Assembly (NCBI GenBank): GCA_950295325.1
Contig: OX485809.1
Coordinates: forward strand, 41,759,081 to 41,823,080
Reading direction: 5' to 3'
DNA length: 64,000 bases
From: Polytrichum commune
Taxonomy: Eukaryota > Streptophyta > Polytrichopsida > Polytrichales > Polytrichaceae
A program made the position numbers and the translations under genes. The notes below the pieces were generated by a model that saw nothing but the letters and a program-made list of their open reading frames with translations, was not told the origin of the DNA and searched no databases. This document shows positions 5,761-63,705 of this stretch, piece by piece (position 1 is the first letter of the stretch; the number at the start of each line of letters is the position of its first letter).

Positions 5761-5874
5761 GTACCTCTCCAATATCATCGGGTAGTTTGGGGTCATCTCG
5801 GACCGTAAACCACCTGATATCAAGAGCTTCCACTTGCACAACACACCGTTGCCATGTAGTAGACAAAAATGGTA

Positions 5875-6100
5875 CACTAATTATCCCAAGTAGTGTAGTG
5901 TGTGTTATAATTATTATTTGGAGTTACGCATTGCAATAACATCTTACTCTAGAGTTCAATTCTTACTAATGAAAGTTCAATAGGTTGTTTAGACATTGTA
6001 GAGGATAGTTGAATTTGCTTGGTAAAATATTGAATTCTCAATAAATAGTCATAGCATTGCGTACTAGTTGGTAGTAACACGCACTAAATGGAATACAAAC
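5875..6100. mobile_element. TA-flanked MITE, diverged copy
   Basis: The left end 'tacactaattatc' is followed by 'ttatttggagttacgcattgc'-type sequence (the family signature is TATTTGGAnTTACnCAnTGC). The right part holds 'caataaatagtcatagcattgcg' in the order seen in the copies at 54,553 and 63,301. The right terminus is poorly preserved. Confidence 0.6.
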
Positions 6101-6163: not shown

Positions 6164-6370
6164 TACAATAAATATTGTATTTAGTGTCACCTATTCTTTG
6201 GAATTACACATTGCTAAAACTATTAACCGAATATCTATTTTTTCCACAAAAAAAATCAAATTGGTAATTTGGACATTCTAGAACATTATACATCTATACT
6301 TGGTTAAAAAATAGCATCAATACTAAAAATATATATAGCAATGTGTAACTCCAAATAGCATTAATACAAT
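6164..6370. mobile_element. TA-flanked MITE, diverged copy
   Basis: The left side carries 'attgtatttagtgtcacc' then 'ttggaattacacattgct'. The middle has 'ttggacattctagaac'. The right side has 'agcaatgtgtaactccaaat', the inverted form of the left end. The extreme right terminus is eroded. Confidence 0.65.
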
Positions 6371-6579
6371 AGCTAATGCAGTGATGGATGCAACACAAGC
6401 ACTCTACAACTCTTTTGAAGGTGACCAACCCAACACTTACATGATATGCACATTTTTCCATAATTCTATTAATGCACATGAAGTTAATGACCATATACAG
6501 CTTTGCTAAACTTGAGTTTTGGTAGTGTAGACTATGCACTACATTGACCCCGCAACATCTTAAGGCTTGGAATATAATG

Positions 6580-9730: not shown

Positions 9731-11326
9731 TCCTCTTACATACAACTCAAATACATAAACAACATATTACCCACACACAACCATTCGTGGTATAGTTTTG
9801 AAGTCATCATGACCATTTGCAGCGCATGTCCTAATATGAGCATCACATCCTCACATACGTGCTCTTAAGTGTTCAACAATAAAACAACTAAAACCATGTT
9901 GCTTTTAATAGGGACATTCATGCTTTCAATTGAGGTTGCTACATCTTACCTTAGCACTCTACACTCAATAGCACTATTAGGAGAGGGGGGGGGGTGTATC
10001 AATGGTATTAGCATTGATAAATGGACTACATATCCTTGGTCCACTGATTATCAACATCGGAGCATTGACAATTTTGCATTTATGTAAGACTATACTAACT
10101 TCCCATACCGGTTACTCCAAAGAGGAACCATGAGGGGAAATTTACTTTAATGTGGCCATTTTCTCAACAACAAATATTTACACACTAAAACATACTTTCT
10201 AACCATATGTTATAATATTATTATTAGGATTTTTTTCATGTAAGGTCCCATTTTTTTATATGTTCATGTAGTTCATTTTCACCCATTTCACATTTTCATC
10301 GCAATCTAGATTGTTAGTGTCTCAAGGGCAAAGTATTTGTAAGAAACAAGAAACGCCTCTGTCAACCATCTTGGTATTTTTGTCATTAGCTTCTAGGCCA
10401 CTTTGTATGTGACCCTCCGAGCATTTCCCTCAATATAATATGGCTCTGCACAAACATTAATATTAACCCACCCCAATTGCATCAAAAGACATAATAACAT
10501 CATAAATAATCTTCAAAACCTAGTTTGGGAATCATCAAACATTTATAAGCATATAAATCATGCCTACTAAATTGGATTATTCTATATTCTTATTTTAAGT
10601 GTCTTTCATACTATATTTTAGTTTTCAATTAGTTTTAATAGCTTTGACATTTGAAAGTGTGATTTGACCTTCTCAATTCTTTAGACACAAAATGTTATGC
10701 ATCTCAAAACCTCCACTTCATATTTTCAAAAGCTTCCCAATAACCTAACCTCTCCAATATTAATGCAATCTCAAAATTGTGAAGTTAGTGAAGTCAACCA
10801 TTTAGTTCCCCGTTTGGTTTAAAACTCCTCGTTGTTTGAATGTACCAAATCATCTATTCATCATATTGATTTGTAAGCGTAAGTGACGTGTAGAAACATG
10901 ACAATGTGACATTATACATGCCAAATACAAATACACCTTCTTCAAGTTGAGCCTCCAAGGCCACGGGGTTTAGGGTTTCGTCAAATAGATTCGAATGCTT
11001 CATCTATATCACTGTGACATCATGGGAAAAGTTGAGTACAATGATTCACACTCTTGCCTTTCTTTTTATTGAGGCACATAGCATGCAAAATGTTATCACA
11101 TGTCAATTGTTTCATCACTATGCATAACTTCAACTTTGAACTTTGTTATGATTGTCATCAGTCATACCTCGTTACATAGTTCACACCTAACCTTGGGTTC
11201 ATTCACTCATATGTATCCTCACTTTTGACTGGCTCCTTGTTCATGTACGGGAAGCACACGTGTGGTGGAAGGAGCAAAGAGATGCATATGCACAAATGGG
11301 ACAAAAATAAATAAACAAAAGTCTTA

Positions 11327-11859
11327 GGGCCGCTTTACACCTAGAGGCCGGGCCAATTTCCCTTGAGGCCGATTGCACAAAATTTCAGCCTTTTTTGGGT
11401 TGGAGGCCGGCCTCTACTACACATTATAATAAGATTATACCGGGGGCCAATTTTCCCATATGTAAAGGCCCTCGGGCCAAGAAGCCAAGTTGATTCAAAA
11501 AAATTAGCCTAATCCAACGGATGTAGCATAATCTAAGATAGAGCCTTTAGATTCCACATAATCCAATGGATCTAGTTCACTTTAAAAAATTATACTTTAT
11601 TTAAGAAGATTTTTTTAGTGGAATATGACATTGGCCTCTAGGCCAAGAATTGGCCTTCCATTTTGGGTGCACCCAATTCAATGAGCTCGGGCCGTGTCAT
11701 AACATACATTTTTTAATTTAAAAAATCATACCACCAAATCGGCCCGGCCTCTAGATGTAAAGGGGTTGGGGCCGATTTGAGCCTTTTGACCAATCACAAA
11801 TGAGGATTTCAAGCCTCTTACACAACGAATTGGCCCGGCCTCTAAGTGTAAAGCGGCCC
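11327..11859 (+). mobile_element. PIF/Harbinger-like MITE, 533-bp family, copy 1
   Basis: The terminal inverted repeats begin 'gggccgctttacacctagag' and end with the complement, 'tctaagtgtaaagcggccc'. The element is flanked by TTA on both sides (11,324-11,326 and 11,860-11,862). A 3-bp TTA/TAA target duplication with GC-rich ends starting GGGCC is typical of Tourist/PIF-Harbinger elements. There is no transposase, so it is non-autonomous. The same length and about 98% identity (about eight differences by eye) are found at 15,121-15,653. Confidence 0.93.
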
Positions 11860-11862
11860 TTA

Positions 11863-12830
11863 GTTACACACAACTAAAATACGTTGGCGTTTGAATTTCA
11901 AAGAAGCCCTCCAAAAATTTCCAACTACAATCAAACAAGGGGCCACTAGGTGATTACGACCCCATTTCATCCCCGTACTTTGTAGTTAACTCTGAAATTT
12001 CCTCATATCATAACATTACTCAACACTCAGTGCTCGTTCAGTTGGCCTTGGAGTATAACAGTTGGATGCTTTGAAAGTTGTGCAAGGAGACTTAGATTTC
12101 GATTGAGCTCCTCACATTTGACTGTTATGTTCCAAGGGCCCGCATTGATGAGTAAGGTTATGATGTTCAACGCTTAGTCAAATAATCTAATTTATGGGGA
12201 ATATGGTATGCAACTAGAGTACCATATCTCACAATGGTAAGTACTATGTAAGCCGTGTTCTAAAATCTATCCGGTTTGGAATGGGAGAAACATATGGAAC
12301 ATAAAACTCTTGAACGGACTGCTTCTAGGATCTAAAATAGCTCACCTTCCGGAATATGGATAAGTTTCCATAACCAAGTGGACGCTTTGACTTGAATCCA
12401 ATGAACCTCGACATGCATACGTTGAAGACCGTGTAGTAGAGACCAAGCGTAGGGATTAGAATTCTTATTTTATCAAGTGTTTTAATTTCATATTATATGA
12501 AGGGGAATAGGAAGCGTCTTAGGATTGCCATTTGCAATGCCTATAGTGATAGATGGACATAAACACGAGCTCCCGATGGAGCAAGGATGAATGAAAAAGC
12601 TTCTCCGCTCTCGGGCTATAGTCCTCGGGTGCTATTTAAAGTAACAAAATCAATTATTGGCCGGGGTAGTCTTGGCCAATTGGAGGTGGTGGATGTTAAG
12701 CATGGGATTTCATGTGTGCTTGGACACCTTGGCAAGTATAGTGTGTTCATTTGGTCCTAAGACCTTGCATGCACCAAGATTATGACCACAAGCAGTGGTT
12801 ACTTGGGCCATTGGATAACTTTATTTTATT
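11863..12830. other. gene-free stretch
   Basis: I see no gene, RNA or recognisable repeat here beyond general repeat-type composition. Confidence 0.35.
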
Positions 12831-14289: not shown

Positions 14290-17024
14290 GAGTCACGTTT
14301 TCTTAGATTTTAGTAAAGCCTACGATAGAGTTGACTAGATGTTCATTTTCAAAGTAATGGAGAAGATAGGGATGCCTCACTCCTTCATTAATATGATTAG
14401 AATGTTGTTCCAAGATGTGGCCATTTCAGTCAACATTCATAATTAAGTGACAACCCCCTTAACCTTCATAAAGGTGTTTGACATGGTTGCCCCTTAGCTC
14501 CATATATGCTTATTATCGTTGCAAAAACATTGAATGTTGCTATAGAAAATGTAGTGAGGACTGGCCTTATTTAAGGAGTTTCTCTTCCTCGATGCAACTC
14601 CCAACAAATAATTGGTCAATATGCTGACAATATGTCCTTTATTGTGAGAGTGGAGAATGTTAGTGTGGATAACATGGTTGCTATCCTTCAAAACTTTGGG
14701 ATTGCTTCCAGATTGGAAATTAATCGGCATAACAATGTGGCATATCGTTGTGGCTGGGGAATTTGTTCAAGCTGGGTGGAGAAATTCCAAAGGAAGTGGG
14801 TTGCAAATGGAGATACTTCCAAGTTACTTGGCACCCTTTTTGGTCTTCATTTGGAGGTGCAAAATGTGGGCAAATTTCTTATTAACATGGTCAGGGCGAA
14901 ACTTAGAAATTGGAGCTCCACATATTTGTCACTTCCTAGCATAACACTCATTGTGAATCAAGTGTTGACTACTACATTGCAGTTTGGGCGGGCTCAAAGA
15001 AAGTATTGGGGAAGTTTAAGGCTTTGCTTCATAACTACCTTTGGTTGGGCTCAAAAAATATGACAAGAATTTGGGTCAGCTAGGGCGACTGTACGTTGCC
15101 TACGAAAGTTGGCGGTCTAAGGGCCGCTTTACACCTAGAGGCCGGGCCAATTTCCCTTGAGGCCGATTGCACAAAATTTCAGCTTTTTTTGGGTTGGAGG
15201 CCGGCCTCTACTACACATTATAATAAGATTATACCGGGGGCCAATTTTCCCATATGTAAAGGCCCTCGGGCCAAGAAGCCAAGCCGATTCAAAAAAATTA
15301 GCCTAATCCAACGGATGTAGCATAATCTAAGATAGAGCCTTTAGATTCCACATAATCCAATGGATCTAGTTCACTTTAAAAAATTATACTTTATTTAAGA
15401 AGATTTTTTTAGTGGAATATGACATTGGCCTCTAGGCCAAGAATTGGCCTTCCATTTTGGGTGCATCCAATTCAACGAGCTCGGGCCGTGTCATAACATA
15501 CATTTTTTAATTTAAAAATTCATACCACCCAATCGGCCCGGCCTCTAGATGTAAAGGGGTTGGGGCCGATTTGAGCCTTTTGACCAATCACAAATGAGGA
15601 TTTCAAGCCTCTTACACAACGAATTGGCCCGGCCTCTAAGTGTAAAGTGGCCCTAAGCCTTACTTCTCGATATGATGCTATGAGAGCACTCATGAGCAAG
15701 TGGATTATTCAAGTGCTTATCTATGGTCAGTTGAATATGCAAATCCTTTTAAGGTACCACATCACGCAATTGCAACCGTCTGGTCAAGGCTCTTAGGGTC
15801 CCTCCTCTATTTGGTTGTTTTTGCCCAATTTCTCTATCAAAGGTGGTTCTAAAGTATGGCATCATATTGCCCAATTGTGCAAGGTGATGGCATGCTCGTC
15901 TACCTTTCTCTTTCCGTCATGCTCGGAGGATAGTTTGCAGCTCAACCTTTGGTGGCAAATGGAGTACCAATGCCTCTATTTTGGAATCACCGTGAATAGG
16001 GTTTTTGTTCTCTACACTAATAGGGCACTTTCCCTAAATCTATTGTTGGGTCGCAATATTCTACCCTTACAGAGGTGAAGCCAAATACGAGGATTGCGGT
16101 ACCTCCTATGGCTTTCTCCAATAGGATGTCAAGGGTTAGGGTGGATAGATTTTCCCGTGGATGTGTGCAAACCCAATTCAACTTGCTCTTTGGAAAATTG
16201 AATCAACTTTTCTTCGACCTGATACGGTGGTGTTGACCCGAAGTTACACATTGCTTGCCACAATTGGCCAAGCTTGGCATGACGTGGATTACTACCCAAG
16301 TGGCTCTTAAAAAGTCGATCCCAAATGAGTGGCTAACTAAAATCCCCTCTTTGTTTCCCTCAGATGGAACATCATATGGCATAAACACAAGGTACATATG
16401 GAAGCGGCTTTAGTTTGGTCAATTATCCACAAGGTGGCGGCGGTGAACGAATGGCATGGGAAGATCTCTATTGAGATGGACAAAACTTTTCCTCGTTGTG
16501 GTTCTAGTGCCATGGAATCGGTGAAGCGTAGATTCTCCAATTTCATGTTAGCTCAACAAGTGTGGCGCTATGCGGCTAACATCACGCAACAATTCTTTGA
16601 CCCTCATAAGTCTTTTTTCATTGACGCAATGCCGCTTTGATCAATCATTGCACAAACCTTTGAAATTTTTAAGTAGTCTTTGGTTCTCCTTGAGAAGTGG
16701 TATGCCATGGATCATTGGGTGTTAATGTAATGATTTGGTCTTCAATGCTAGTCAGTGGCCTTTGGATAAGACATACCAAGTGATGTGTGGGATTCCTTAA
16801 TTGACCATGATAGATTGGAATGGCAACAAACTCTCTATGACTTGAAAAAAATTCTAGATGTTCCCTACAAGGATGTGCTTAACCAATTTGACTCAGTTTG
16901 GTGTGTCAAAGGTCTTATTGTTACTCGTAGTAATTTGTCAGTTACTTGGAAAATATTAGCATTATTTCTTGAGTCCCCTCGGTCTGCGCTGTTTAATCCA
17001 AGGTGGTTGTGTATTTTTCCTTGA
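14290..17024 (+). mobile_element. LINE (L1-like) ORF2 relic: reverse transcriptase and C-terminal zinc-knuckle region, broken
   Basis: Read across several frames, the plus strand encodes the standard order of a plant non-LTR reverse transcriptase. 'FLDFSKAYDRVDW'-like sequence begins near 14,302. A 'GCPLAPY' block lies near 14,483-14,503. The catalytic box reads YADN instead of YADD (14,620-14,631). Next come 'LGTLFG'-like and 'VGGL' blocks. A late 'CGSSAMESV' cysteine region near 16,497-16,525 is followed by 'QQVW', as in the zf-RVT domain of plant LINEs. Many frameshifts and stops make it non-functional. The endonuclease region and most of the 5' half are missing. A 533-bp MITE sits inside it at 15,121-15,653. 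Confidence 0.88.
15121..15653 (+). mobile_element. PIF/Harbinger-like MITE, 533-bp family, copy 2, inserted in the LINE
   Basis: Same length, ends and interior as the element at 11,327-11,859. It is flanked by TAA at 15,118-15,120 and 15,654-15,656. Removing the element and one TAA rejoins the LINE frame through '...VGGLSLTSRYDAM...', so this is a genuine insertion into the LINE and is younger than it. One terminal-repeat mismatch (aagtggccc instead of aagcggccc) distinguishes the right end. Confidence 0.95.
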
Positions 17025-17029
17025 AATTG

Positions 17030-19810
17030 AATTTGTTTTCAATTTGTGCCAATAAATAAACATACTTTATGTTTTGACATTTCCTGTATCCCAAGTGCAT
17101 AGAACGGGTCTACCATGACTGGGTTTGTCATTTACCTAGCCCATAACTTTGAAGAAGCTTCTAGAAGCCACACTAGCAAAGACTTTAAGTAACATGTAAC
17201 GACAAGTATAAACCGATTACATTTATTCTTAATTCAATTTCACCCAACTTGACACGTGGATTTTAAAGCTAGGGAACATGACACTTCATGTTGGAGAACA
17301 AACCATCAAGATACGCGGACCTTATTTGGTTATTTATCTTAATTGAACACCTGTATTTGAGTTGGGGTGTGGTTACATTGGGTTTGAGAATGAAATTCAA
17401 CAAGACGTGTGTTTTAAAGAGATAACATGATCTCAGTTCAAAATTTATTAACTATTCTAAATCAATATCAAAACACATATGGAGGTACCTAGGTATTCAT
17501 TGAAAGGATCAACACACGTGCACTCTTGATAACCATAACTCAATTAAGAAGATATGATTTTCAATCCAAGATTTTTTATGATGTTTTATCATAACTTTTA
17601 CTATGCAACACATGTTTTGTTACATAACTTGGAGAACATGAAAAATGAACACTTAACACACACACACATATATTGTACCTTATCCTCGACAATCCTTCTA
17701 TCCTAAGGGTGAGTGATTGGTAACATACAATGACTTACGATGATTTCTTGCAATAACTATACATCCAAGTAGCGGAAAAGCACATCTATGAAAGAAACAA
17801 TTTAAGGTAATCGAGAAGTACCACTTTAAGACTTCAAAACATATTCATGTTGTTTTGAATGTACCACAAACAATAAGGATGTTATAAATAGGGGGTTGTT
17901 AAATTAACCACATATTGATAAATGACTGTAGAGACGTGTCGCACGATCACATGACTTGTCGAAAGTTGAACAATTATTGTTGTAAGCTCAAATGTAAAGG
18001 AAGAGAAAGCAAAGTTGATACGTTGCTCCTCTTTGTGTGAGCATGCGACATGTCTACGTGGTCGTTAACAAACTACATGGTCGATTTAACAATCTCCTAT
18101 ACATATAGAAACCATTCACATAACTTCAAAGTGAGTTTGTGTGGATGAGTCCAACATAAGCACGTATAAGTTGGAGGTAATTGTCCAATTTGTAGCAAAA
18201 AATGAAAGAAAGAAAGAGTTGGAGGTGTCGATTTTAAATCACTTACCTACTTACTATGTTATACAATATCATACATGTAGTTATTGGGGTTGGATCTTGG
18301 GTGGATGAGAGGTACGCTCGTATACAATAATTCTCTCACTCCATGTCTCTTGAGCATAATATGTTAACTCTCAAGGTTAACAACATGTTCACACTTTATT
18401 AATACACACACCTCTAAATCCTTGCCACCAATCGAACTGAGACTTTTAACAATACATGCTCTCTTGCGTTCTCATTATGTATCATCATTTAGAGGTGCCA
18501 TCTCCCCTCTAAAGTCTTATGCCCCTTTTAAATATTTAACGAGGGGTGAGTTTTAACTCGTTTATAAGAGAATCAACTATTAATACCTCGCAAGCTTTGA
18601 CCGAATAGAAATCGTAACTTCAACTATTTCTATTTCTATGTAAAGCATTGTGCATCCTATGATATTATTTATGACCTTAAGACTCACACTTTATAGAACT
18701 CGTATGGAGTGCACATGCAAAACATATAACGAGACTAGCTCTCCTCTACAATAAGAATACATGATTTAACACCCTTTGTGTTAGCGTTTGATGTATGAAG
18801 TGTCCTCATCCTCTAAGCATTTTGGAAGGCCTATGTATTCACAACACCATGCATTGAGGTGGACATTTTTCCCTTTTGTTGACTTGTGTCAAAATTAACC
18901 CCATATTATGTATCCCATTCAACAAGTGCACTTCTCCAATTAGTTGAACAATGAAGACTCATAATCAAAATACAATTCTTGAGTGCCCTTGAATGTAAAT
19001 ATACTCTAAGTGTATTGATTATCAATGTCACATATGACTATAGATATAGATATAAATATATTTCTCATTGACATAAAGACAACACACTAATCTAAGTTTT
19101 AAACCTATAACATGAAATCTATGATCTTACAACTTGGTGAGGACTTGCAAATTTTGTAAATAGAGGTTGTACATTGGGCTCGAGGTTCTTGACGTATATT
19201 TAAATTCATCCATTGTGGATAAAGTTGCTCTAGCAAACTAAATCCACTGCGTGTTGAAGGCCAATTTATTTCAACTTGACTACACTACACCAAAGAGCGT
19301 TATTAGTGTGATCTTTTGGATAGAGTGACTATGTGCGTGACTTGCGGTTCTAAAGTACTAAGATAAGGTGAACTTCACTTTTTGACTTGTGGAGACACGT
19401 GGAGTTGTGAGGGTATATCTTCTTACTTATTAAACACAATAATATACTCTCTCTAGTAATTGTGGTCCAATATCAAAGTTATTACCATAGTGAAAAGAAG
19501 TATTGTTTAAATGAATTGTTAGAAAACATTGTGTTAGTTGCACCAATGACCCTATTTAGGGTAGACTAATTCAAGCCTTTTGAAGCCATTTCATAACCAA
19601 ATAATATAAAAATAATAATTTCTAGGCTATAAAATATATCAATGCAATTTCACCTTCCTTACATATGAGTTTGCATGGACAACAAGAGAATCGCAAGGTA
19701 TTGGACATGTAAAGGCTTAACACATAAAATTGTGCATTGAAAGCTCTATTGGATCCACTTGACTTAGTTGCAATGATTATGGACTTTGGGCATTGGAGCC
19801 AAGTTCACTA
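17030..19810. other. gene-free stretch
   Basis: No gene. Apart from the S350 copy at 17,310-17,640 I recognise only short (CA)n-like sequence near 17,658-17,670 and general AT-rich DNA. Confidence 0.4.
17310..17640 (+). repeat. dispersed repeat family S350, copy 2
   Basis: Aligns in order with 7,735-8,060 and 37,620-37,965. It ends with 'ttggagaacatgaaaaatga', which is shared closely with 37,953-37,970 ('ttggagaacatgaaaaac'). Confidence 0.55.
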
Positions 19811-19816
19811 CACTTA

Positions 19817-20328
19817 GGGGCGGTTTACACTACGGACCAAGAGCCACGACCAAGAAAATTAAATCATTTTCATGGTCACAGCTCTTGGCCAAGAGCCGTG
19901 ACCATGAAAAATCAAAAATGGATTTTTGAGTGGCTTGGTCACTCTTGTAGTGTAAAGTGGATTTGGACCGGGACAACTTTGGGCTGATTTTTTAAATTTC
20001 TATCCCAACGATCTACAGTAACGTCAAAAAAAATCGGGAAAAAAAATATTAAAAAAAAAAATCGGCCAATGGCTGATTTTCAGCCTTACGGCTCCCTTGA
20101 TTTCCGTTGAGTCAAGCATTTTGCCTCGCCTCAACGGAAAACCCGTTGGACCATGGCACATTATCCAAATGGCAGATTTTAGTAGTTTTTGGGGACCTCA
20201 AAGTTAGTGGTCATTCTCCTTTTTTCAAGGTAGTGTAAAGCCAAATGGGATCAAGAGCACTTTACTCTCCAATCACAGATTTTAGAATTTCATGGTCATG
20301 GCTCTTGGTCCATAGTGTAAACCGCCCC
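19817..20328. mobile_element. PIF/Harbinger-like MITE, 512 bp
   Basis: The left end 'ggggcggtttacactacgga' is the inverted form of the right end 'tccatagtgtaaaccgcccc'. The terminal repeats extend about 35 bp, through 'ccaagagccacgacca'. TTA flanks both sides (19,814-19,816 and 20,329-20,331). There is a second internal inverted pair around 'ttcatggtcacagctcttgg'/'ccaagagccgtgaccatgaa' near the left end. No coding capacity. Confidence 0.93.
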
Positions 20329-20331
20329 TTA

Positions 20332-21470
20332 AGTACTCCTACTAGTGTGGGCCACATGAATTTTGTAAAACCCACATTAATTTTCAATCCATGTCAAGTT
20401 TACAAGTTACATATGGTGTGCACCATAATAATTGGTTGGTTAGAAAATTGATATGAGTGACTATTTATTGGCTTTGTCCCATTATAGGCAGATACTATGC
20501 GATCACTTTTGGTTGTGGTCAATGATGCTTTAGGATGAATGTAGTGAATGGATGAGAAAAATATCATTGAATGATTTTTTTTGGCTCAAAAGTTTGTCCA
20601 TGGATGGATGAATACATATGGATGAAAGTGGAAACTATATAATCAATGTAGATGAAACTAAGTTAACTCTAGATGACTAAAAATTCATGTAATAAGCTAG
20701 ATAAAGCTATCTAGAACCTAAGTTAGCTCCCACTCGGAGAATAAGGCTATAGACTATAGCTAAAAACGATATATGAAGAGAGTTCAACAAACTACAACAC
20801 ATATACTCGTAACCAATCATGAACTCATCCAAAGGACATAGCTTATGTGCGTAGCACCTTGTTTTATGCTACTTTGGTTCTTGAACGAATATTCAAGGGG
20901 TTGGTCGGAAGTCTCTAGGACAACTTATGAGAAGATTCACATTATCTCCACCACGATGAGACAAACAATGTGGCCCACATTAACTTTCCACCCACATTAA
21001 TAGGACTAAGGTAGAGAGTAGTTAAACTAACATTTTAAGCTATTGCACGTACACATGGCTGCGAGGTTGTCATGAAATGTATATTCATGTTGGCCTTTGG
21101 GTTCATAATAGGTGTATAGAAAGAAGAAACTAAAGGGTGCAATATAACATTTGTTGAATATTCAAATTAAAAACAAATAATTCCTTTTATCCACTACTTG
21201 GACCACACTAATGATGTGTTTGCAAATGCCAAGGACCAAGTCTTTGATTAACTAGCCTCAACCCAATCTAGTTGGGTACTAGATGTGAGTGCCATCAAAG
21301 CCCAACTTAATCACATGCACCAAAGCCTTATGGCCACCTCCTCGTTGCAAAAGTGAGGTTCATATCCCCATGTATTGACTTACTATCCTAATAAATCATG
21401 ACCTCCTAATGTCGGGGTACTAACTGTATCTAGTTCATAGTTGACGCCCTTTGTGCATGGAACAACCCCT
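20332..21470. other. gene-free stretch
   Basis: No gene recognised. The right part (after about 21,240) may be decayed 3' sequence of the transposase relic on the minus strand, but I see no conserved protein there. Confidence 0.35.
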
Positions 21471-21479
21471 TGGCTTTGT

Positions 21480-22990
21480 GGGCCTACCTCATCGGGTCCA
21501 AATATTCCAATATATTTTGAACATTGTCTTAAGCAATTTGCAAATACTCACATCCAACGGCTAGTTGCCATGTGATGCGTGATTAGGAATGGTTAAGACA
21601 TCTAGACACGTTTTTTGGGTTGTGTGCACAACATCTAGGGTGGCATGGGAGGTGTGCCCATCCATTATGAGTACATGCCATTAGAAATGCCATACATTTT
21701 ACCAATGTGGAGCAAGAAGTAATTAATCCACTCATTGAATAGTGCTCCCATCATCCAAGCCTTCTTTTGCATGGCCATACAAACCCTCTCTTGGCACCTA
21801 ATTATGGAATTCCATCCAAATGATCTACATTTAAATTAAAAAAACGGGGATACTAGAGCTTGACGCTTTGATGCAAAACAAGGCAAACAACCATTCTATC
21901 TCGTTTGGCATGACCATATGCATGCTATGTACCTCCCCTCCTTGTCAAAATGTTGCCTTCACCATTCTGCCCTATTTGGGCCCTGGACTCATCACAATTA
22001 TAGATGTGAGTGTACGGGGAATTGTGTCTATAGTAGATATCCAATAAGTTCCAATAAGTTGTCATATAAAGATGCAACATTCTTAGGGTATAAACCATTT
22101 GCCTTGCCTTGCTCCAAACCTTGCACAACTTTAAGTGTCAAGGTGGAGTTCCTAATTTTGAAACACTTTGGCCACCTTGGTTCATGAAATCCCTTTGTAA
22201 AGGGCGTGTCATGGTCCTAGGTGATCTCAACCACCTTGAAACTGCATGGACTCAAATTAATTAGATGCCTTGTCTTTGCATTTTGAGAATCCATTTTACA
22301 AGTTCATTTTCCTCCTCAAATGAAAGCACCCTTGACATGCCACGTTTCCTACATATAGTTTTCCCAGTAACACGGTCTTGCAAAGACATTGTGGGTCTTC
22401 CATAAATTTTAGCCATTCTTTTTATAGGAGCCCAACCATCAATTACAATAAGGGTTGCATGTAGTTGTTTATATGTCTAGTTCTCATTTTTTCCAAGTTT
22501 TTTACTTGAGCATTCATAACATTGCCATTCATATTGACCACCTCAACACCCTCTCGAATGTTCTTTGCTTCATGATGTGTGTTGTGTGAACGTGTGTTGT
22601 GGAGTGGGTTGAAGCCATTAAAATGGCCACATAATGCACTAATGTGATATGCTTTAGCCCTAGTTGCATTAAACCCAGGGGGGAGGCCATCATTATTATG
22701 AGATTGAGTTCCTTTTTAACCTACCACTACATGGGCCCTTAGACCACCAAGATGCCGACTTCTAGCAACCAACATCTCATGGGACACCATGACACCCTCC
22801 TTGATAACATTGATAGTCTCTATTTTCAATACATTCAAACTAGGGGTAGGCTCAGGGAGCTATGCAAACTTAGCAAAACAATCTTTGTTGCGTGCATGAA
22901 AATCATAGTCTGCCCCACTCTCAAAGTCCTTCAAGTCAATAAATGGTTTAATTGCAACTTGGGAGTTTTGAATGCGATCTAAGAATTACT
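21480..22990 (-). pseudogene. pogo/CENP-B-type DDE transposase relic
   Basis: On the minus strand, read across several frames, three conserved parts occur in the correct order. First is a psq-type helix-turn-helix ('IKRMAKIYGRPTMSLQDRV', about 22,370-22,430) followed by 'VLSFEEENELVKWIL'. Second is 'IYNCDESRAQIGQNG' with 'LTRRG' (about 21,930-22,010), which includes the first catalytic Asp of the DDE_1 domain. Third is 'LIMDGHTSHATLDVVH' and 'IPNHASH' then 'PLDVS' (about 21,540-21,670), which holds the second Asp. An open stretch with two stops continues upstream to about 22,990. Stops and frameshifts make it inactive. Such proteins bind terminal repeats and cut DNA at TA target sites. Neighbouring sequence at 23,235-23,340 resembles one end of the local TA-flanked MITE family. 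Confidence 0.85.
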
Positions 22991-23234
22991 CACTCAGATC
23001 GTCCAAACTTGTGACATAGTCCTTTGCATGTGACCTAGCCCCCCTCATCGTTGCACTCAATAAACTCATAGCATTATTGAAAATTCTATGTTATGTAAGA
23101 GTGTTTGGTTGCCATAGCCTTAATCATGGATAATTAATTTAGCCACAATTGAATTTGAGCTAATAACTTGAGATGCATATTGTTGAAGTATGAGTTGACT
23201 TGCACATGGCATTTGATTAGGGGCATGTCCTTAC

Positions 23235-23340
23235 AACCAATTTGACCTTCCTTGGCAAAAAATGAGATACATTGTAAATAGTCATAGCATTGCACAATTC
23301 CAAACACTAAGTGACACCAAACATAATCAATATTATAGTG
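23235..23340. mobile_element. right-end sequence of the TA-flanked MITE family beside the transposase relic
   Basis: 'aaatagtcatagcattgcac' followed by 'aagtgacaccaaacataat' and 'attatagtg' follows the same order as the right ends of the MITEs at 54,553-54,773 and 5,875-6,100. No matching left end was found within a few hundred bases, so this is either a solo MITE half or the terminus of the former autonomous element. Confidence 0.55.
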
Positions 23341-25902: not shown

Positions 25903-33190
<7,288 letters not shown>

Positions 33191-34436: not shown

Positions 34437-35050
34437 GTAATGAAACCACCTCGCAAGTACCTCTTTGGGGAGTTGTGAAACTACATTGATTATCCTGATT
34501 AGTCTGTTTTACTAGTTGTCGTTACACAGTGCTATTAACTATTTAATGAGAATGTAATATTTTACCAAGCAAAGTCATTTCTGTTCTATAATGTTCGAAC
34601 AACCTATCGAATGTTCGTGGTAAACATTGAACTCCTGAGTAAGACGTTATTGCACTGCATAACTCAGAGTAATAACGCACACTCATTGGGATAATGAGTA
34701 CTGTAATACATTGGAATCCTAAGTAGTGTAATTATCAATGAGGTGGCTGATGCTCACATTGTGACTTGTATAGATCCAATCTTGGAATTAGTGTCTTGCA
34801 AATTTCAAACTTTTTTGATGTTTATAATGCAGTTAGTTACACACGATATGATGAATATTCTGAAATGATCCATCATGCAGATTGAATGCAAGAGCAAACC
34901 TCCACATGCAGTAATGAAACCACCTCTAAGTCGGAGGAGTGAGGGATTGTGAAAACAGCCTAAGTACATTTATAATCCAAGAGGTTGCTGGTGCTCAGGA
35001 TACAACTTATATAGGTCCGAGCTTGGAATTGGTAGCTTACAAACAAATGC
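34415..35050 (+). repeat. diverged direct duplication downstream of the kinase
   Basis: 34,424-34,480 ('cttccacatgaggtaatgaaa', then 'ccacctc' and 'ttgtgaaa') matches 34,899-34,955 ('cctccacatgcagtaatgaaa'). 34,735-34,805 ('gaggtggctgatgctca', then 'ccttggaatt'-type sequence) matches 34,980-35,045 ('gaggttgctggtgctca'). The second copy is shorter. No coding sequence. Confidence 0.65.
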
Positions 35051-36330: not shown

Positions 36331-37136
36331 ACTAGATTCGATCTTAACGTGTCTCTCCATTAATCTTATTCTATCAGATTCTAAAGGCGGCCTCAAACTA
36401 GCTCAAGAACTTTTTGATTGTGATGATGACAAATTCCAAGAATTTAGTCACCTTAGAGTGGTTGTGGCATCTTCAGCTTCAATGTGGGGCCAAAATAAGG
36501 CAATTAATTGGTAAAGTAGATTCAATCTTCATGCGTAACTCCTTTATTCTTGTTGTAATGGGTTTCGAATTCATTTAGGGTTGGCCTCGTAAGGAACATA
36601 AGAACATTATGGTTGTGACGATGACAAATTCCAATAATTTAGTCAAGTAGAGTGTTGGTTGCCTTATCTTTAGCTTCAAATTGGTGTTAAGAAAAGAAAA
36701 GAGAAAAAAATTGTCCAAAAAATGTTGATGAACTAGATTCAAGCTTAATGCATATGTCCATTATTCTTGTTGCATTGATTTTGAATTCATTTAATGGTGG
36801 CCTCATAAGAAACTTAACAATTATATTATTGCGATTATGAAAAATTCCAAAATTTCATCAATACACCATGTAGGGTATTTATAGTGTCACTTACTATTTG
36901 GAACCATGCAATGCAATAACTTCTTGTTCATGACTCTAATTTTTACTAGCAAAATTTACTTGGTAAAATGTTACATACTCAATAAATAGTTACAACATTG
37001 TTGTGTGACTCCAAATTGGTAAGTAAGTGATACTAAACACCATACACGGTGTAGTCGTGGCATCTTCAACTTCAATTTAGAGGGTTAAAAAAAAGGGGAG
37101 GTTGTCCAAACAAACAAAAAAAAAAGGTGTTGATGA
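36331..37136 (+). repeat. three-unit tandem repeat, third unit interrupted by a MITE
   Basis: Units begin near 36,331, 36,515 and 36,732 with 'tagattcnancttnatg'-type sequence. Each continues through 'ttattctwrttg', 'ggcggcctca'/'ggtggcctca', 'gatgacaaattccaa' and 'tcttcagcttcaa'. The unit length is about 185-217 bp. In unit 3 a 188-bp MITE (36,864-37,051) separates 'tttcatcaa' from 'gtggcatcttcaacttcaa'. Confidence 0.75.
36864..37051. mobile_element. TA-flanked MITE, 188-bp copy
   Basis: The ends CACCATGTAGGG and its imperfect inverse CCATACACGGTG are flanked by TA. The internal signature 'agtgtcacttactatttgga' on the left and 'ccaaattggtaagtaagtga' on the right matches the family at 54,553 and 63,301. 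It is inserted in the third unit of a tandem array. Confidence 0.75.
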
Positions 37137-46378: not shown

Positions 46379-46518
46379 CTTAGAGCATTATCCCAAACCC
46401 AATAACATAATTAACATAATTTATTATTAGAAACGGTGTGGCTTTGAGCTAGTTGTTACCAGCTAGTAAGAAGAGGTCCATGAACTACTATAGTCTAGGA
46501 AGGACTGAGTGTGAGCTA

Positions 46519-46909
46519 CACTAAATATGATATTTAGTGTCACCAATTCTACATGTATTGCTCAATACTGATTGTAAACCAAGGTGTAGTGTCACCAACA
46601 CCAAATGTTAACCCAACGTTATTTGTCATTCCTTGTAGATTTAAAAAAAATTAAAAAAATTGGAGGGGGGATTATTGATTTACAGTGTTGCAATTATTGT
46701 CACTTACCCGGTGACTTTCATCCAAATTTCAATCATCCATGATAATATTTCATCACAAGTTGATGACAAGATAAGGTAGGGTTTTGGCCAATGGATGAGC
46801 TCATCCATCATCCCTGACAGTATTTGTTTACATATTCATAAGAAACGTCATCCACAAAATGACCATAGTGACATAAAATACCATATGACATAAAATATTA
46901 TATTTAGTG
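46519..46909. mobile_element. TA-flanked MITE, 391-bp variant
   Basis: The left end 'cactaaatatgatatttagt' and the right end 'attatatttagtg' are flanked by TA. It is longer than other copies, with unrelated interior sequence including a second 'tgtagtgtcacc' block, so it may be a compound or a related subfamily. Confidence 0.65.
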
Positions 46910-46911
46910 TA

Positions 46912-54545: not shown

Positions 54546-54552
54546 AGACTTA

Positions 54553-54773
54553 CACTAGATGTGATATTTAGTGTCACTTACTATTTGGATTTACATAGTG
54601 TTATATCTTTTGATTATTGATGTAATTTTTTTTTACCAAGTCAAGTTGTTAATGTTCTATAATGTCCACATTATCAATTTCACATTTGTCAGTAAATATA
54701 TGAGATGTAGAGTATATAGACATAGCATTGCGTAATTTCAAATAGTAAGTGACACCGAATATTATATTTAGTG
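54553..54773. mobile_element. TA-flanked MITE, 221-bp copy
   Basis: The left end 'cactagatgtgatatttagt' then 'gtcacttactatttgga' and the right end 'caaatagtaagtgacacc' then 'attatatttagtg' are inverted repeats of about 50 bp flanked by TA. Close to the copy at 63,301-63,523 in length and interior. Confidence 0.85.
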
Positions 54774-54779
54774 TACTTA

Positions 54780-55109: not shown

Positions 55110-56028
55110 TAAAAAGGGGTTGCCAAGCCACCCCGTAAGCCCGGTTACCAAACCCCAGCAGCCAAGCGAGTTCCGTTACGTGACCGGGCGCCGGTTGCGA
55201 ATCCCCTGCAACGACTTTGGACAGCGGCCGAAGACTAACTTACTGCTGCCATGGCCAAAGCGCACAAGCTGGCAGGCACGGCTCCCCTTGCTTCTCTCCT
55301 CTCTCTTCTCTTCCTGCTCTTTCGTTCTCTCGGTCTTCTCATATTCCTCGCCTGAGCCGTTGCACAGAAGCAGAGAGGGGAAGAGCCGTTGCAGCAGCGC
55401 AAGAAGAAAGGAGGTCCAGCCGAGATTGCTGCAACCCACCAACTTCGTAGACAAACAACCGTCGCTGGCGCTTCCATCTTCTTGTTGCCCTCCATTCCGA
55501 GCCACAGCCAGAACCGCGGGACCTTGCATATCAAAGCAATCGGTGCATGCCACCGGGGTGGCAGCAGAAGCTTTCATGTAGGGTTTGCAGGGCAAGGGTT
55601 TCGGGCTCGGGGAGGTCAGAGGGGGCGGACTTGGAGATCTGAAAGGACAAAGGCGTTAGTTGCCAGGGGATGGGATGTGGCGTTTGTGTTGACAAGTGTG
55701 TGATGTGTGGTCTGTGATGTGTTTTGTGATGTGGGGATGATGATGTGTGAAGAATGTATACAGTGGCGGATGAGGGAGGAGGAGGAAACAGGAAGGGTTA
55801 GGAGGGGCACCAACATCATCATTTGTTGTGGGTGAGATGAGTTGTTCGGGGGCGAGGGATGAGGGTGGTAGAAGAATTAGTTGTAGTTGTTGTAGAGGTA
55901 GGGAGGGGAAGAAGAATAATATGGAAGAGGGACAGTGAGTGAGACATCAAGAAAAGGAAAGGCAAAGGCAAAGCAAAGCATGCAGGAGGAGGAGGTTGAA
56001 GGGAGAGAGGGGAGACATCATAAAGGCC
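55110..56028 (+). promoter_or_regulatory. 5' leader / promoter region of the MKP1-like gene
   Basis: A GC-richer block upstream of the coding exon, with a T230 fragment at its left edge, a CT-rich tract near 55,283-55,345 and a long purine-rich tract at 55,740-56,020. Several upstream ATGs occur, including a 34-codon frame at 55,251-55,355 and a 15-codon cysteine-rich frame at 55,670-55,717. Pyrimidine tracts are common at plant transcription starts, so the mRNA may begin near 55.3 kb. Confidence 0.5.
55251..55355 (+). CDS. candidate upstream ORF, 34 residues, hydrophobic
   Basis: The ATG has a strong plant initiation context (gccATGGcc). It opens a 34-codon frame with a basic start (MAKAHK) followed by a leucine-rich hydrophobic stretch, ending in TGA. 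If transcribed with the phosphatase mRNA it could act as a translation-attenuating upstream ORF. It may instead be untranslated leader or promoter DNA; there is no homology support. Confidence 0.25.
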   Translation: MAKAHKLAGTAPLASLLSLLFLLFRSLGLLIFLA

Positions 56029-58932
56029 ATGGTTGCGTGTGTGCAGCAATCTGTGAGTAGTAGCAGCCACGCCGTGTGTGACAAGAAGAACTTCAATCCT
56101 AATCCCGGGAGGACCGTGTTGCTGGATGGGCGCACCGTAGCTCTTTACAGTAGCAGTAGCGGTAACAGGAGCAGGATCAGTAGCAGGAGTAGACATCACC
56201 ACCCATTGCGTGACATCACTGCTTCCATGAGGCTTGCGGACGGCGAGAGGGGGTTAGTGGTAGTGCAGCAGCAGGATGGGGAAACCACCACAACAGGACT
56301 AGCAGGAGGAGGCGGAGGAGGAGGAGGGCATCATCATCGTCATCATCACCACGATGCATCATCGTTGTTATGTGATGTTGAGAGTGATGAGAGAGGGTCG
56401 TCATGTGTAGATGGTGGGGGAGGGGGTAGGTTTGCAAGGAAGAATTTCTGGAGAGCAGCAGGGTGGCAATCCCTCTCTGCTCCACCCAGTCCTACACCTT
56501 TACCCATGCAAGGCTCTGGGTTTGGTGACATTAGGAAAGCATTTCCACTCACACCGAGAGTTCAACCACAAGGAGGTGGGGTTAAGGTTAGGCCACCTCC
56601 ATTGCAACCACCAAGGAGGAGCACGGATGGGAATGGGATGTTTGATGAGGGAAATAACACGCAATGGCTACCTCCCACACCTGGGGGTAGGAGAGACATT
56701 CGAGGGATCATAGGGCCGGAGATGAAACTGGATTTGGGGGCTGTGCAAAGGAATCGGGATGCATGTGAGCCAACTGAAATGCAGCTGAAGAGGGACAAGT
56801 TTGCGTTTTTTGATAAGGAGTGTTCTCGAATTGTGGAGCATATCTACTTGGGGAGTGATGCTGTTGCGAGGAACCGGGATACTCTTCGAGAGAATGGGAT
56901 CACACATGTGCTTAACTGTGTTGGATTTGTGTGCCCTGAGTACTTTCCGAAGGAATTGAGCTACAAAACGTTGTGGCTGCAGGATAGCCCTTCTGAGGAC
57001 ATCACGAGTGTGTTGTATGACGTGTTCGACTACTTTGAGGAGGTTCATGAACAGGGTGGGAGAGTTTTTGTGCATTGTTGTCAGGGCGTGTCTCGCTCTA
57101 CCTCTTTGGTCATTGCGTATCTTATGTGGCGGGATGGAAGAAGCTTTGAAGATGCGTTTCAAGATGTGAAAGCGGCCAGAGGTGTGACTAACCCCAACAT
57201 GGGGTTTGCTTGCCAACTGCTCCAGTGTCAGAAACGAGTGCATGCTGCACCTGTGAGTCCTAATTCTGTGTTAAGGATGTACAGGATGGCTCCTCATTCC
57301 CCTTTTGACCCTCACCATCTTGTGCCCAAGACAGTCACTCACCCTGGGGTTGGTGCACTGGACTCCAGAGGGGCCTTTGTTATACATGTCCCCAATGCTC
57401 TCTATGTATGGGAGGGGGCTAAGTGCGACGCCGGCATGGTTACTGCTGCACAACATTTCACATTGCAAGTGGTCAGATATGAGAGGGCGCAAGGCCGCAT
57501 TGTCAAAGTCAGTGAAGGTGAGGAGACAATTGAGTTTTGGGATGCCTTGAAGAAAGGTGACTCTCAGGGTAGCAGAAGCAGTTTCAGCTTCCATCATCAT
57601 GAGGCGGGTGTGGGCAAGGAAAATGGGTCTCCCAAAATTGGGAGGGTTAGTGATTCAGGGATGGAGAGTGGGGTTTTCTCCCCGAGGAAAGTCTTGGGGT
57701 ATGACAAAGATTTTGAGACATACCTGAAAGCCAAAAATGGGCTTCCTCCACCTCAAGTGGCAGAATCAGGCCTCCCAACAACCCATGTCCCAAGGGACAG
57801 TGGCTGGAGTCGCTTGAAGAAGAAGTTCATGTCTGGGCCTGGTGGTAAGTTGAAGCAAGAGCGAGAAGGGTCAGATGCTGGAGCTCTGAAGCCGAAAGAT
57901 AGGGCACCCGCAGAGAAATCGCTCCTAGAAGCGCAGGCCGAGGAGGGCTGGACTGCAGGGTCAAGGCCTTTGTCGTCTCCGGATGCTTCACAGTGCTCCT
58001 CTGCCTCACCATTCTCGTTGCATTCATTTTCTTCACATTCCTCGCAATCGCCCCCTTTCATGACATCCCCATGCATGTCACCTCCTCCTTCGCCATCCCC
58101 TTCTCTGTCCCACACTCCCTCCCCAAATTCTTCAGCATGGTCCCCCACATCCTTCCACACATCCTTCCCATCGCTTGATGCTCTGCCCAACCCACTGGAT
58201 GCGAAGCAATCTCGATCTTCACCCTCAAAGGTACTGGCTCCATCCCTCGCAAAACGAAGGGGCAGTGTGTTGCCCTCGCTCAGCGTACCCAACCCTGTGG
58301 ATGAGCCTCCTTCAACTCCAAGGAAAAGCCCGGAGCTCTCTTCTACCTCTACCAAACATTCCAAGGAGCGAGATCCTCAGGCAATACCTGAATCTGGCAA
58401 TGTTGGGTGTGGTGTGGATGCACTAAACACATTAAGAAGGCAAGGAGGATCAGCTGGCTGTGAACAAAGTGCAGAGGGCTGTGGTGCATGGGCTTCTTCT
58501 TCGTCAAGGCCCTGGTTTGGGCACCAAGCAGAGGAGGACATTGCTGAGAGTTCATGTGATCGAGGAAGAGAATCGTTGAAAATTGAGGCGCGTGTGCCCT
58601 GCCTTTTTGAGTGGCCACAGCTGGTGAAGATTGAAATGTTTGATGCTGATGACCTCCATTCCGGCGCAGCCTTTGTCCTGCTGGTGCCGGATGCATCTGA
58701 TGGGAGAGGAGGCCAATTGTATCTCTGGGTGGGCCTCCAGAGACGGAATGACCAAGATTGGCAACATATTGGGGCGGAATTGGCTCAGCTCTTAAATCTC
58801 CGCCGTGACATCCCTGTTAAGGTCCACTCTCACATCTTTCCTTGGGAAGTTCTTTCTTCTACCTTTTTCAATCCACTTCTGGGCACCATGGAAGCCAATG
58901 GTCCATGTTCATTCTGCCTGTCTTGCAAGTGA
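56029..58932 (+). CDS. MKP1: MKP1-type MAP kinase phosphatase (dual-specificity phosphatase with gelsolin-like regions)
   Basis: One uninterrupted exon of 967 residues. I chose the ATG at 56,029 (gccATGGtt context); the frame is open further upstream but has no earlier in-frame ATG. Order: a low-complexity N-terminus (Gly run about 93-100, then His-rich); the MKP1-typical 'KNFWRAAGWQS' motif (F140, W141); a dual-specificity phosphatase domain at about 266-405, with general acid Asp319 in WLQDSPSED and the active-site loop HCCQGVSRS (Cys350, Arg356); a gelsolin-like region from about 445 ('DSRGAFVIHVP...YVWEG'); a Ser/Pro-rich linker; and a second gelsolin-like segment from about 858 ('GGQLYLWVG'). 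In plants MKP1 dephosphorylates stress and immunity MAP kinases. It is longer than Arabidopsis MKP1, mainly in the N-terminus and linker. The last about 35 residues after 'RRDIPVKV' do not look conserved, so a missed 3' intron is possible. Confidence 0.93.
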   Translation: MVACVQQSVSSSSHAVCDKKNFNPNPGRTVLLDGRTVALYSSSSGNRSRISSRSRHHHPLRDITASMRLADGERGLVVVQQQDGETTTTGLAGGGGGGGGHHHRHHHHDASSLLCDVESDERGSSCVDGGGGGRFARKNFWRAAGWQSLSAPPSPTPLPMQGSGFGDIRKAFPLTPRVQPQGGGVKVRPPPLQPPRRSTDGNGMFDEGNNTQWLPPTPGGRRDIRGIIGPEMKLDLGAVQRNRDACEPTEMQLKRDKFAFFDKECSRIVEHIYLGSDAVARNRDTLRENGITHVLNCVGFVCPEYFPKELSYKTLWLQDSPSEDITSVLYDVFDYFEEVHEQGGRVFVHCCQGVSRSTSLVIAYLMWRDGRSFEDAFQDVKAARGVTNPNMGFACQLLQCQKRVHAAPVSPNSVLRMYRMAPHSPFDPHHLVPKTVTHPGVGALDSRGAFVIHVPNALYVWEGAKCDAGMVTAAQHFTLQVVRYERAQGRIVKVSEGEETIEFWDALKKGDSQGSRSSFSFHHHEAGVGKENGSPKIGRVSDSGMESGVFSPRKVLGYDKDFETYLKAKNGLPPPQVAESGLPTTHVPRDSGWSRLKKKFMSGPGGKLKQEREGSDAGALKPKDRAPAEKSLLEAQAEEGWTAGSRPLSSPDASQCSSASPFSLHSFSSHSSQSPPFMTSPCMSPPPSPSPSLSHTPSPNSSAWSPTSFHTSFPSLDALPNPLDAKQSRSSPSKVLAPSLAKRRGSVLPSLSVPNPVDEPPSTPRKSPELSSTSTKHSKERDPQAIPESGNVGCGVDALNTLRRQGGSAGCEQSAEGCGAWASSSSRPWFGHQAEEDIAESSCDRGRESLKIEARVPCLFEWPQLVKIEMFDADDLHSGAAFVLLVPDASDGRGGQLYLWVGLQRRNDQDWQHIGAELAQLLNLRRDIPVKVHSHIFPWEVLSSTFFNPLLGTMEANGPCSFCLSCK

Positions 58933-63290: not shown

Positions 63291-63300
63291 ATAGTAGGTA

Positions 63301-63523
63301 CACTAATATATGATATTTAGTGTCACTTACTATTTGGAATTACACAATGCTGCATCTATTTATTGTATATCTCATATTTTACCAACAAAATGTCAAACTA
63401 GTTGTTTGGACATTATAGAACAATCACAACTTTACTTGGTAATGTTTACATCAATAGTAAAAAGGTATAGCATAGCATTGTGTAAATCCAAATAGTAAGT
63501 GACACTAAATATCATATTTAGTG
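63301..63523. mobile_element. TA-flanked MITE, 223-bp copy (best preserved)
   Basis: The left end 'cactaatatatgatatttag' then 'tgtcacttactatttggaat' and 'tacacaatgc', and the right end 'gtgtaaatccaaatagtaag' then 'tgacactaaat' and 'atcatatttagtg', are inverted repeats of about 50 bp flanked by TA. Each end is itself close to a palindrome (cactaaatat/atatttagtg). Confidence 0.88.
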
Positions 63524-63705
63524 TAGTACTACCGAGGATAGTTTGGTGGGAAATGGTACCACACCATTTGAGATGCAACACACATGTGTTAACTACTCAA
63601 ACTCATCCTGCTTTTATGTTTACACAACATGCACATGCTTAGCAAATTTAAGACCGGATATCATATACATAAGCAGAGTTGCACTCAAACAAACCAGCCC
63701 CCTAT

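Follow-up and report, generated by a model that had tools for sequence, protein, structure and literature searches.

A pogo-like transposase relic beside one arm of a TA-flanked MITE family in Polytrichum commune: a candidate source element

Elements of the pogo superfamily combine a DDE_1 transposase, with an N-terminal helix-turn-helix of psq, CENP-B_N, Tc5 or similar type, with inverted repeats at both ends and a duplication of TA (TAA, TAAA). The Lemi1/Emigrant system of Arabidopsis is reportedly a case in which a plant pogo element was proposed as the source of TA-flanked MITEs. The Stowaway/mariner MITEs of plants are likewise short, flanked by TA and bounded by inverted repeats, but they belong to another transposase family and their terminal sequence is other than the one described below.

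In the available portions of the published surveys, pogo elements are reported to be scarce in land plants, one survey recording only Lemi, in 23 eudicots. According to the same partial sources, Lemi binds DNA through HTH_Tnp_Tc5, in some cases accompanied by HTH_ABP1_N, and has a catalytic spacing of DD29-42D. The accessible text of one paper assigns DD30-32D to groups 52 and 53, of which 52 is a dicot clade, and DD35D to groups 33-40, including two Selaginella sequences that make up clade 38 (PMC7325037); that paper adds these two sequences to the record and calls for work on early plants. DD35D also occurs in Passer and in Fot/Fot-like elements, the latter with HTH_psq and/or HTH_Tnp_Tc5, and the excerpts describe published pogo elements with TA duplications, DD35D and repeats of ~100 bp, the latter mainly in FotC. 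The available parts of four other papers (PMC12550479, PMC12868710, PMC9033089 and PMC10952607) are silent about pogo elements in non-seed plants, and a search with most subscription journals outside its range returned no published title on a DD35D pogo element with long arms and MITEs in plants.

We analyzed a window of 64,000 nucleotides from the P. commune genome (contig OX485809.1, forward-strand positions 41,759,081 to 41,823,080; positions below are those of the window). It resembles the Lemi1/Emigrant case in that a plant pogo element is the proposed source of TA-flanked MITEs. It differs in its long arms and in a DD35D spacing that lies inside the DD29-42D of Lemi and outside the DD30-32D of dicot clade 52, as these ranges appear in the partial sources; the relic is set beside Lemi by description only. 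With Fot/Fot-like elements the likeness extends to DD35D, to the HTH_psq of some members, to TA in FotC and FotD and to the ~100-bp repeats, as far as the available excerpts describe them, but Fot is mainly fungal and the proposed psq motif of the relic was recognized by eye only. Selaginella clade 38 (PMC7325037, available in part) is comparable as a non-seed land plant within the DD35D groups, a likeness that is again one of description only; the excerpts mention neither ends nor MITEs for these sequences.

A transposase relic on the minus strand

The initial annotation had described a minus-strand, pogo-like relic with a psq-type helix-turn-helix followed by IYNCDES and LIMDGHTSH blocks. 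A broken transposase indeed extends on the minus strand from about 22,487 to 21,480, and the two blocks occur in that order, IYNCDES in frame 0 and LIMDGHTSH in frame 1. Its catalytic part (21,482-22,020, minus strand) is interrupted by stops and frame changes. With X at the stops, the frame-1 stretch containing LIMDGHTSH scored 28.2 bits against Pfam DDE_1 (E 1.7e-6), a family with a curated cut-off of 22 bits. Pieces joined from three frames reached 46.5 bits over profile positions 8-137 of 177 (E 3.9e-12), although these pieces were put together by eye and selecting the frames in this way biases the score upwards; taken one at a time, the open pieces of the relic gave no DDE_1 match in Pfam. 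The proposed first aspartate was placed by eye at codon 21,991-21,993, inside IYNCDES. The second (21,660-21,662) and third (21,552-21,554) acidic codons are separated by 35 residues in one frame with one stop among them, equivalent to DD35D. Because the match exceeds the curated threshold and the spacing is DD35D, the relic is best read, from its sequence, as a pogo-type (DDE_1) transposase, an assignment that we regard as supported.

Its frame changes and stops indicate that the gene is dead. An estimate of the age of this decay from stop counts was set aside, because the reading path had been picked to avoid stops. No further transposase copy was found in the 64-kb window, and the DDE piece retrieved nothing relevant from PDB sequences. 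Three collections that do not consist of plant genomes, so that a blank in them means little, also yielded no relative: plasmids had none, viral contigs gave three pattern matches to the transposase, and prokaryote genomes gave 86 pattern matches to the HTH piece.

The proposed helix-turn-helix, psq-like and then CENP-B-like, occupies 22,264-22,487 on the minus strand, with a proposed start methionine at 22,485-22,487 (MRTR). Between it and the catalytic part lies a middle piece in frame 2 (22,028-22,213, minus strand), which was included in the joined query; both pieces were read by eye. The psq-type motif is visible by eye only, and neither HTH_psq nor CENP-B was matched in this part by Pfam, PDB sequence or fold. 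A single-sequence model of it had a pLDDT of 66, and its best Foldseek hit (E 0.64) included nothing relevant.

A coding-like open stretch with few stops and a codon-position signal (22,444-23,087, minus strand) continues in the same frame as the proposed start. Across 22,444-23,090, an interval chosen for its openness, this frame has 3 stops in 215 codons, the remaining minus frames having 17 and 24, and in 1.6% of shuffles (P 0.016) the most open of all six frames matched it. When the interval was widened to 22,490-23,220, the same six-frame shuffle test gave P 0.308. Among 1212 segments outside the region, 0.9% had as strong a codon-position signal, and equally few stops were present in 196 of 7272 segment-frames elsewhere, genes included. 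No Pfam family matched the stretch at its cut-off. It is possibly an N-terminal extension, or the first ORF, of the element.

The MITE family and other features of the window

TA-flanked MITEs had been noted at 5.9, 54.55 and 63.3 kb; these proved real, and more loci were found at 6,164, 34,480 and 36,862. A profile built from the 54.5- and 63.3-kb copies was run over the whole window and returned seven family loci below E 1e-10 (5.9, 6.2, 23.2, 34.5, 36.9, 54.5 and 63.3 kb), two of which are the seeds themselves. Six of the seven are two-armed. The seeds (54,551-54,775 and 63,299-63,525) are full copies with TA on both sides, as is found also at 36,862-37,055, a copy with an internal deletion (E 6.9e-16). 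The copies at 5,872-6,097 (E 3.3e-12, aligning on both sides of the axis) and 34,480-34,705 (E 2.5e-14) are diverged, and that at 6,164-6,379 (E 6.1e-24) has one far end degraded. TA flanking thus holds on both sides in 3/6 two-armed copies, with one side unclear in the other three. All four non-seed two-armed copies align across the axis (82/114 + 87/114, 79/113 + 70/111, 82/121 + 65/115 and 66/103 + 87/130).

The 224-bp consensus forms a single long inverted repeat whose arms agree at 95 of 113 positions, and at 49 of the outer 50, a figure to be read with the fact that a consensus made from both orientations favours symmetry. Arm-to-arm identity in the single seed copies is 78/115 and 89/121. 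The ends of the family (CACTAAATAT) begin with CACT. Short, built as an inverted repeat, present in several copies and bordered by TA, these sequences are TA-flanked MITEs. No transposon paper was among the literature matches listed for the end sequence, and Rfam returned nothing on the whole window. MITE DNA was absent from a plasmid collection and the end pattern from viral contigs, neither of which represents plant genomes, so that these blanks mean little.

A different short element at 46,517-46,911 (395 bp, TA on both sides) has only its tips in common with the family, at 27/27 positions on the left and 23/26 on the right, and has an interior unlike the relic and the rest of the window. 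Apart from the seven loci, its tips were the only sequences in the window to score below E 0.3 with the profile. A hairpin fold of its left tip has a z of -5.7, the values for the other two of the three tips tested being -2.5 (63.3 kb) and -1.9 (54.5 kb).

Other elements and genes were also observed in the window. Two 543-bp copies (11,321-11,863 and 15,115-15,657) are 98.2% identical and have inverted ends of ~36-40 bp (GGGCCGCTTTACAC...) with TTA or TAA alongside; we take them to be a PIF/Harbinger-type MITE, by its appearance recently active. Because of these ends and flanks, the idea that the pair (11.3 and 15.1 kb), which lies in direct orientation, consists of LTRs was dropped. An element of ~512 bp at 19,817-20,328, with inverted ends of ~47 bp (GGGGCGGTTTACACTA...) and TTA on both sides, is similar in style. 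An open stretch at 14,575-15,063 resembles by eye the end of a LINE reverse transcriptase, although Pfam gave no match at E 0.01. Protein kinase exons at 27,233-29,256, about 1-5 kb from the one-armed MITE locus described below, match Pfam Pkinase in two of three stretches and appear by eye to be of NDR/AGC type. Lastly, an intron-free open stretch of 997 aa at 55,939-58,932 carries DSPc and MPK1_gelsolin_C domains, a layout that is presumably that of plant MKP1, making this an MKP1-like phosphatase gene of a land plant.

One arm of the family beside the relic

The initial annotation had also placed a MITE end at 23,235-23,340, next to the relic, with its flanking TA lost and the opposite end missing. 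Each of these observations held, and the first could be sharpened to a single outward-pointing arm that ends at the MITE axis (23,225-23,340), proposed here as the 5' terminal inverted repeat of a pogo element. The seed profile detects it at E 3.5e-15, and 23,225-23,327 aligns without gaps to consensus positions 112-214 at 75.7% identity. Past 23,327 an insertion disturbs the tip, of which the outermost TAGTG ends at 23,340 and is followed by AA in place of TA. The half arm is closer to the right arms of the MITEs (86/121 and 88/121) than to the left (80/130 and 82/127), and its tip points away from the transposase gene.

Similarity breaks at the axis of symmetry, consensus position 112 of 224, where identity drops from 15/20 to 4/20. 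In one register, successive blocks of 20 bases hold 15, 13, 15, 17 and 16 identities on the way out from the axis, compared with 4, 8, 9, 6 and 4 on the other side. Local alignment revealed no second arm left of 23,225: of 300 shuffles, 115 attained the score of 32 and 205 that of 29. The 23.2-kb locus is the sole one-armed member among the seven in the window.

Searches for an opposite end, with arm queries, end queries and the whole-window profile, all came back without a match. At 20,200-21,600, the scores of four arm queries in the outward direction were reached by 60, 18, 99 and 41 of 100 shuffles, and over 17,000-21,450, where seven end queries were run in both directions, 6 of 60 shuffles attained the best score. 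The control for the latter search was weak: two tip queries gave the known right end itself scores of just 29 and 23, so that an equally worn left tip could escape them; arm-length queries and the profile do detect the right arm.

Origin of the MITEs

We consider it plausible, and favour the reading, that this element or its family was the source of the MITEs. The locus would then represent the remains of one DD35D pogo-superfamily DNA transposon in a land plant. From the arm side, its anatomy would consist of a terminal inverted repeat of ~115 bp (23,225-23,340), a short leader, and a minus-strand coding region comprising a possible N-terminal extension, the helix-turn-helix part and the DDE_1 domain, with the 3' end lost. 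An intact transposase would bind the ends, excise the element and reinsert it at TA. An internal deletion joining both arms would generate MITEs of ~225 bp, which the same enzyme would mobilise in trans.

Relic, half arm and MITEs are all established as features of this DNA, and from them we infer the link between end and transposase, and that this transposase family moved the MITEs. Half arm and transposase are read as one element because of the position of the arm, its direction and its break at the axis, and also because a coding-like stretch runs between the two. When a half was placed at random, 0.7% of trials put it within 900 bp upstream with its tip outward, and 1.4% did so if either side was allowed; this figure is conditional on the half existing and was computed after the observation. 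The suggestion that the MITEs derive from the relic is accordingly one that the DDE_1 match and the outward arm at the axis make plausible, set against evidence from one locus and one end, with the opposite end not found and TA lost.

The same features could arise if a MITE had landed next to a pogo relic of separate origin and one of its arms had since been lost, the MITEs having been moved by another TA-using transposase, an account that we find possible but somewhat doubtful. Seven family loci within 64 kb would make chance neighbours common, and the missing opposite end and missing TA fit such a history. It sits less well with the half being the only one of seven to have lost an arm, and with its outward direction. 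The position of the break at the axis also counts against chance, but breakage and sequence loss in long palindromes tend to fall at the centre, so this too would be expected of a MITE that had inserted independently. Were the neighbourhood due to chance, the locus would be an ordinary relic beside an ordinary MITE. We think it improbable that the MITEs stem instead from a Tc1-like or mariner-like TA-using family, the pogo relic being a bystander irrespective of whether an older element includes the half arm. The available portions of published work do describe Tc1-like elements with TA duplications in moss and angiosperms, and PlantMar in angiosperms; in the same sources, however, the moss Tc1-like ends start with CAGT rather than the CACT seen here, and DDE_1 was the only transposase detected among the selected pieces and ORFs of the window.

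Returning to the favoured reading of a pogo source, a further possibility, somewhat doubtful, is that this land plant harboured a pogo lineage of DD35D, psq type, separate from the eudicot Lemi clade and with inverted-repeat ends of ~115 bp. Its joined ends would have given rise to the MITE family, while the same 27-bp palindromic tips would also serve another element, unrelated in its interior, as a putative double transposase binding site. Pogo-derived plant MITEs are already known as a kind, and a plant DD35D element with long arms would be no more than one further member of it; the less usual point may be that this DD35D pogo differs from the Lemi clade of plants. If the link is true, the source of a MITE family would be named, and a DD35D pogo element tied to that family would represent another pogo lineage active in plants.
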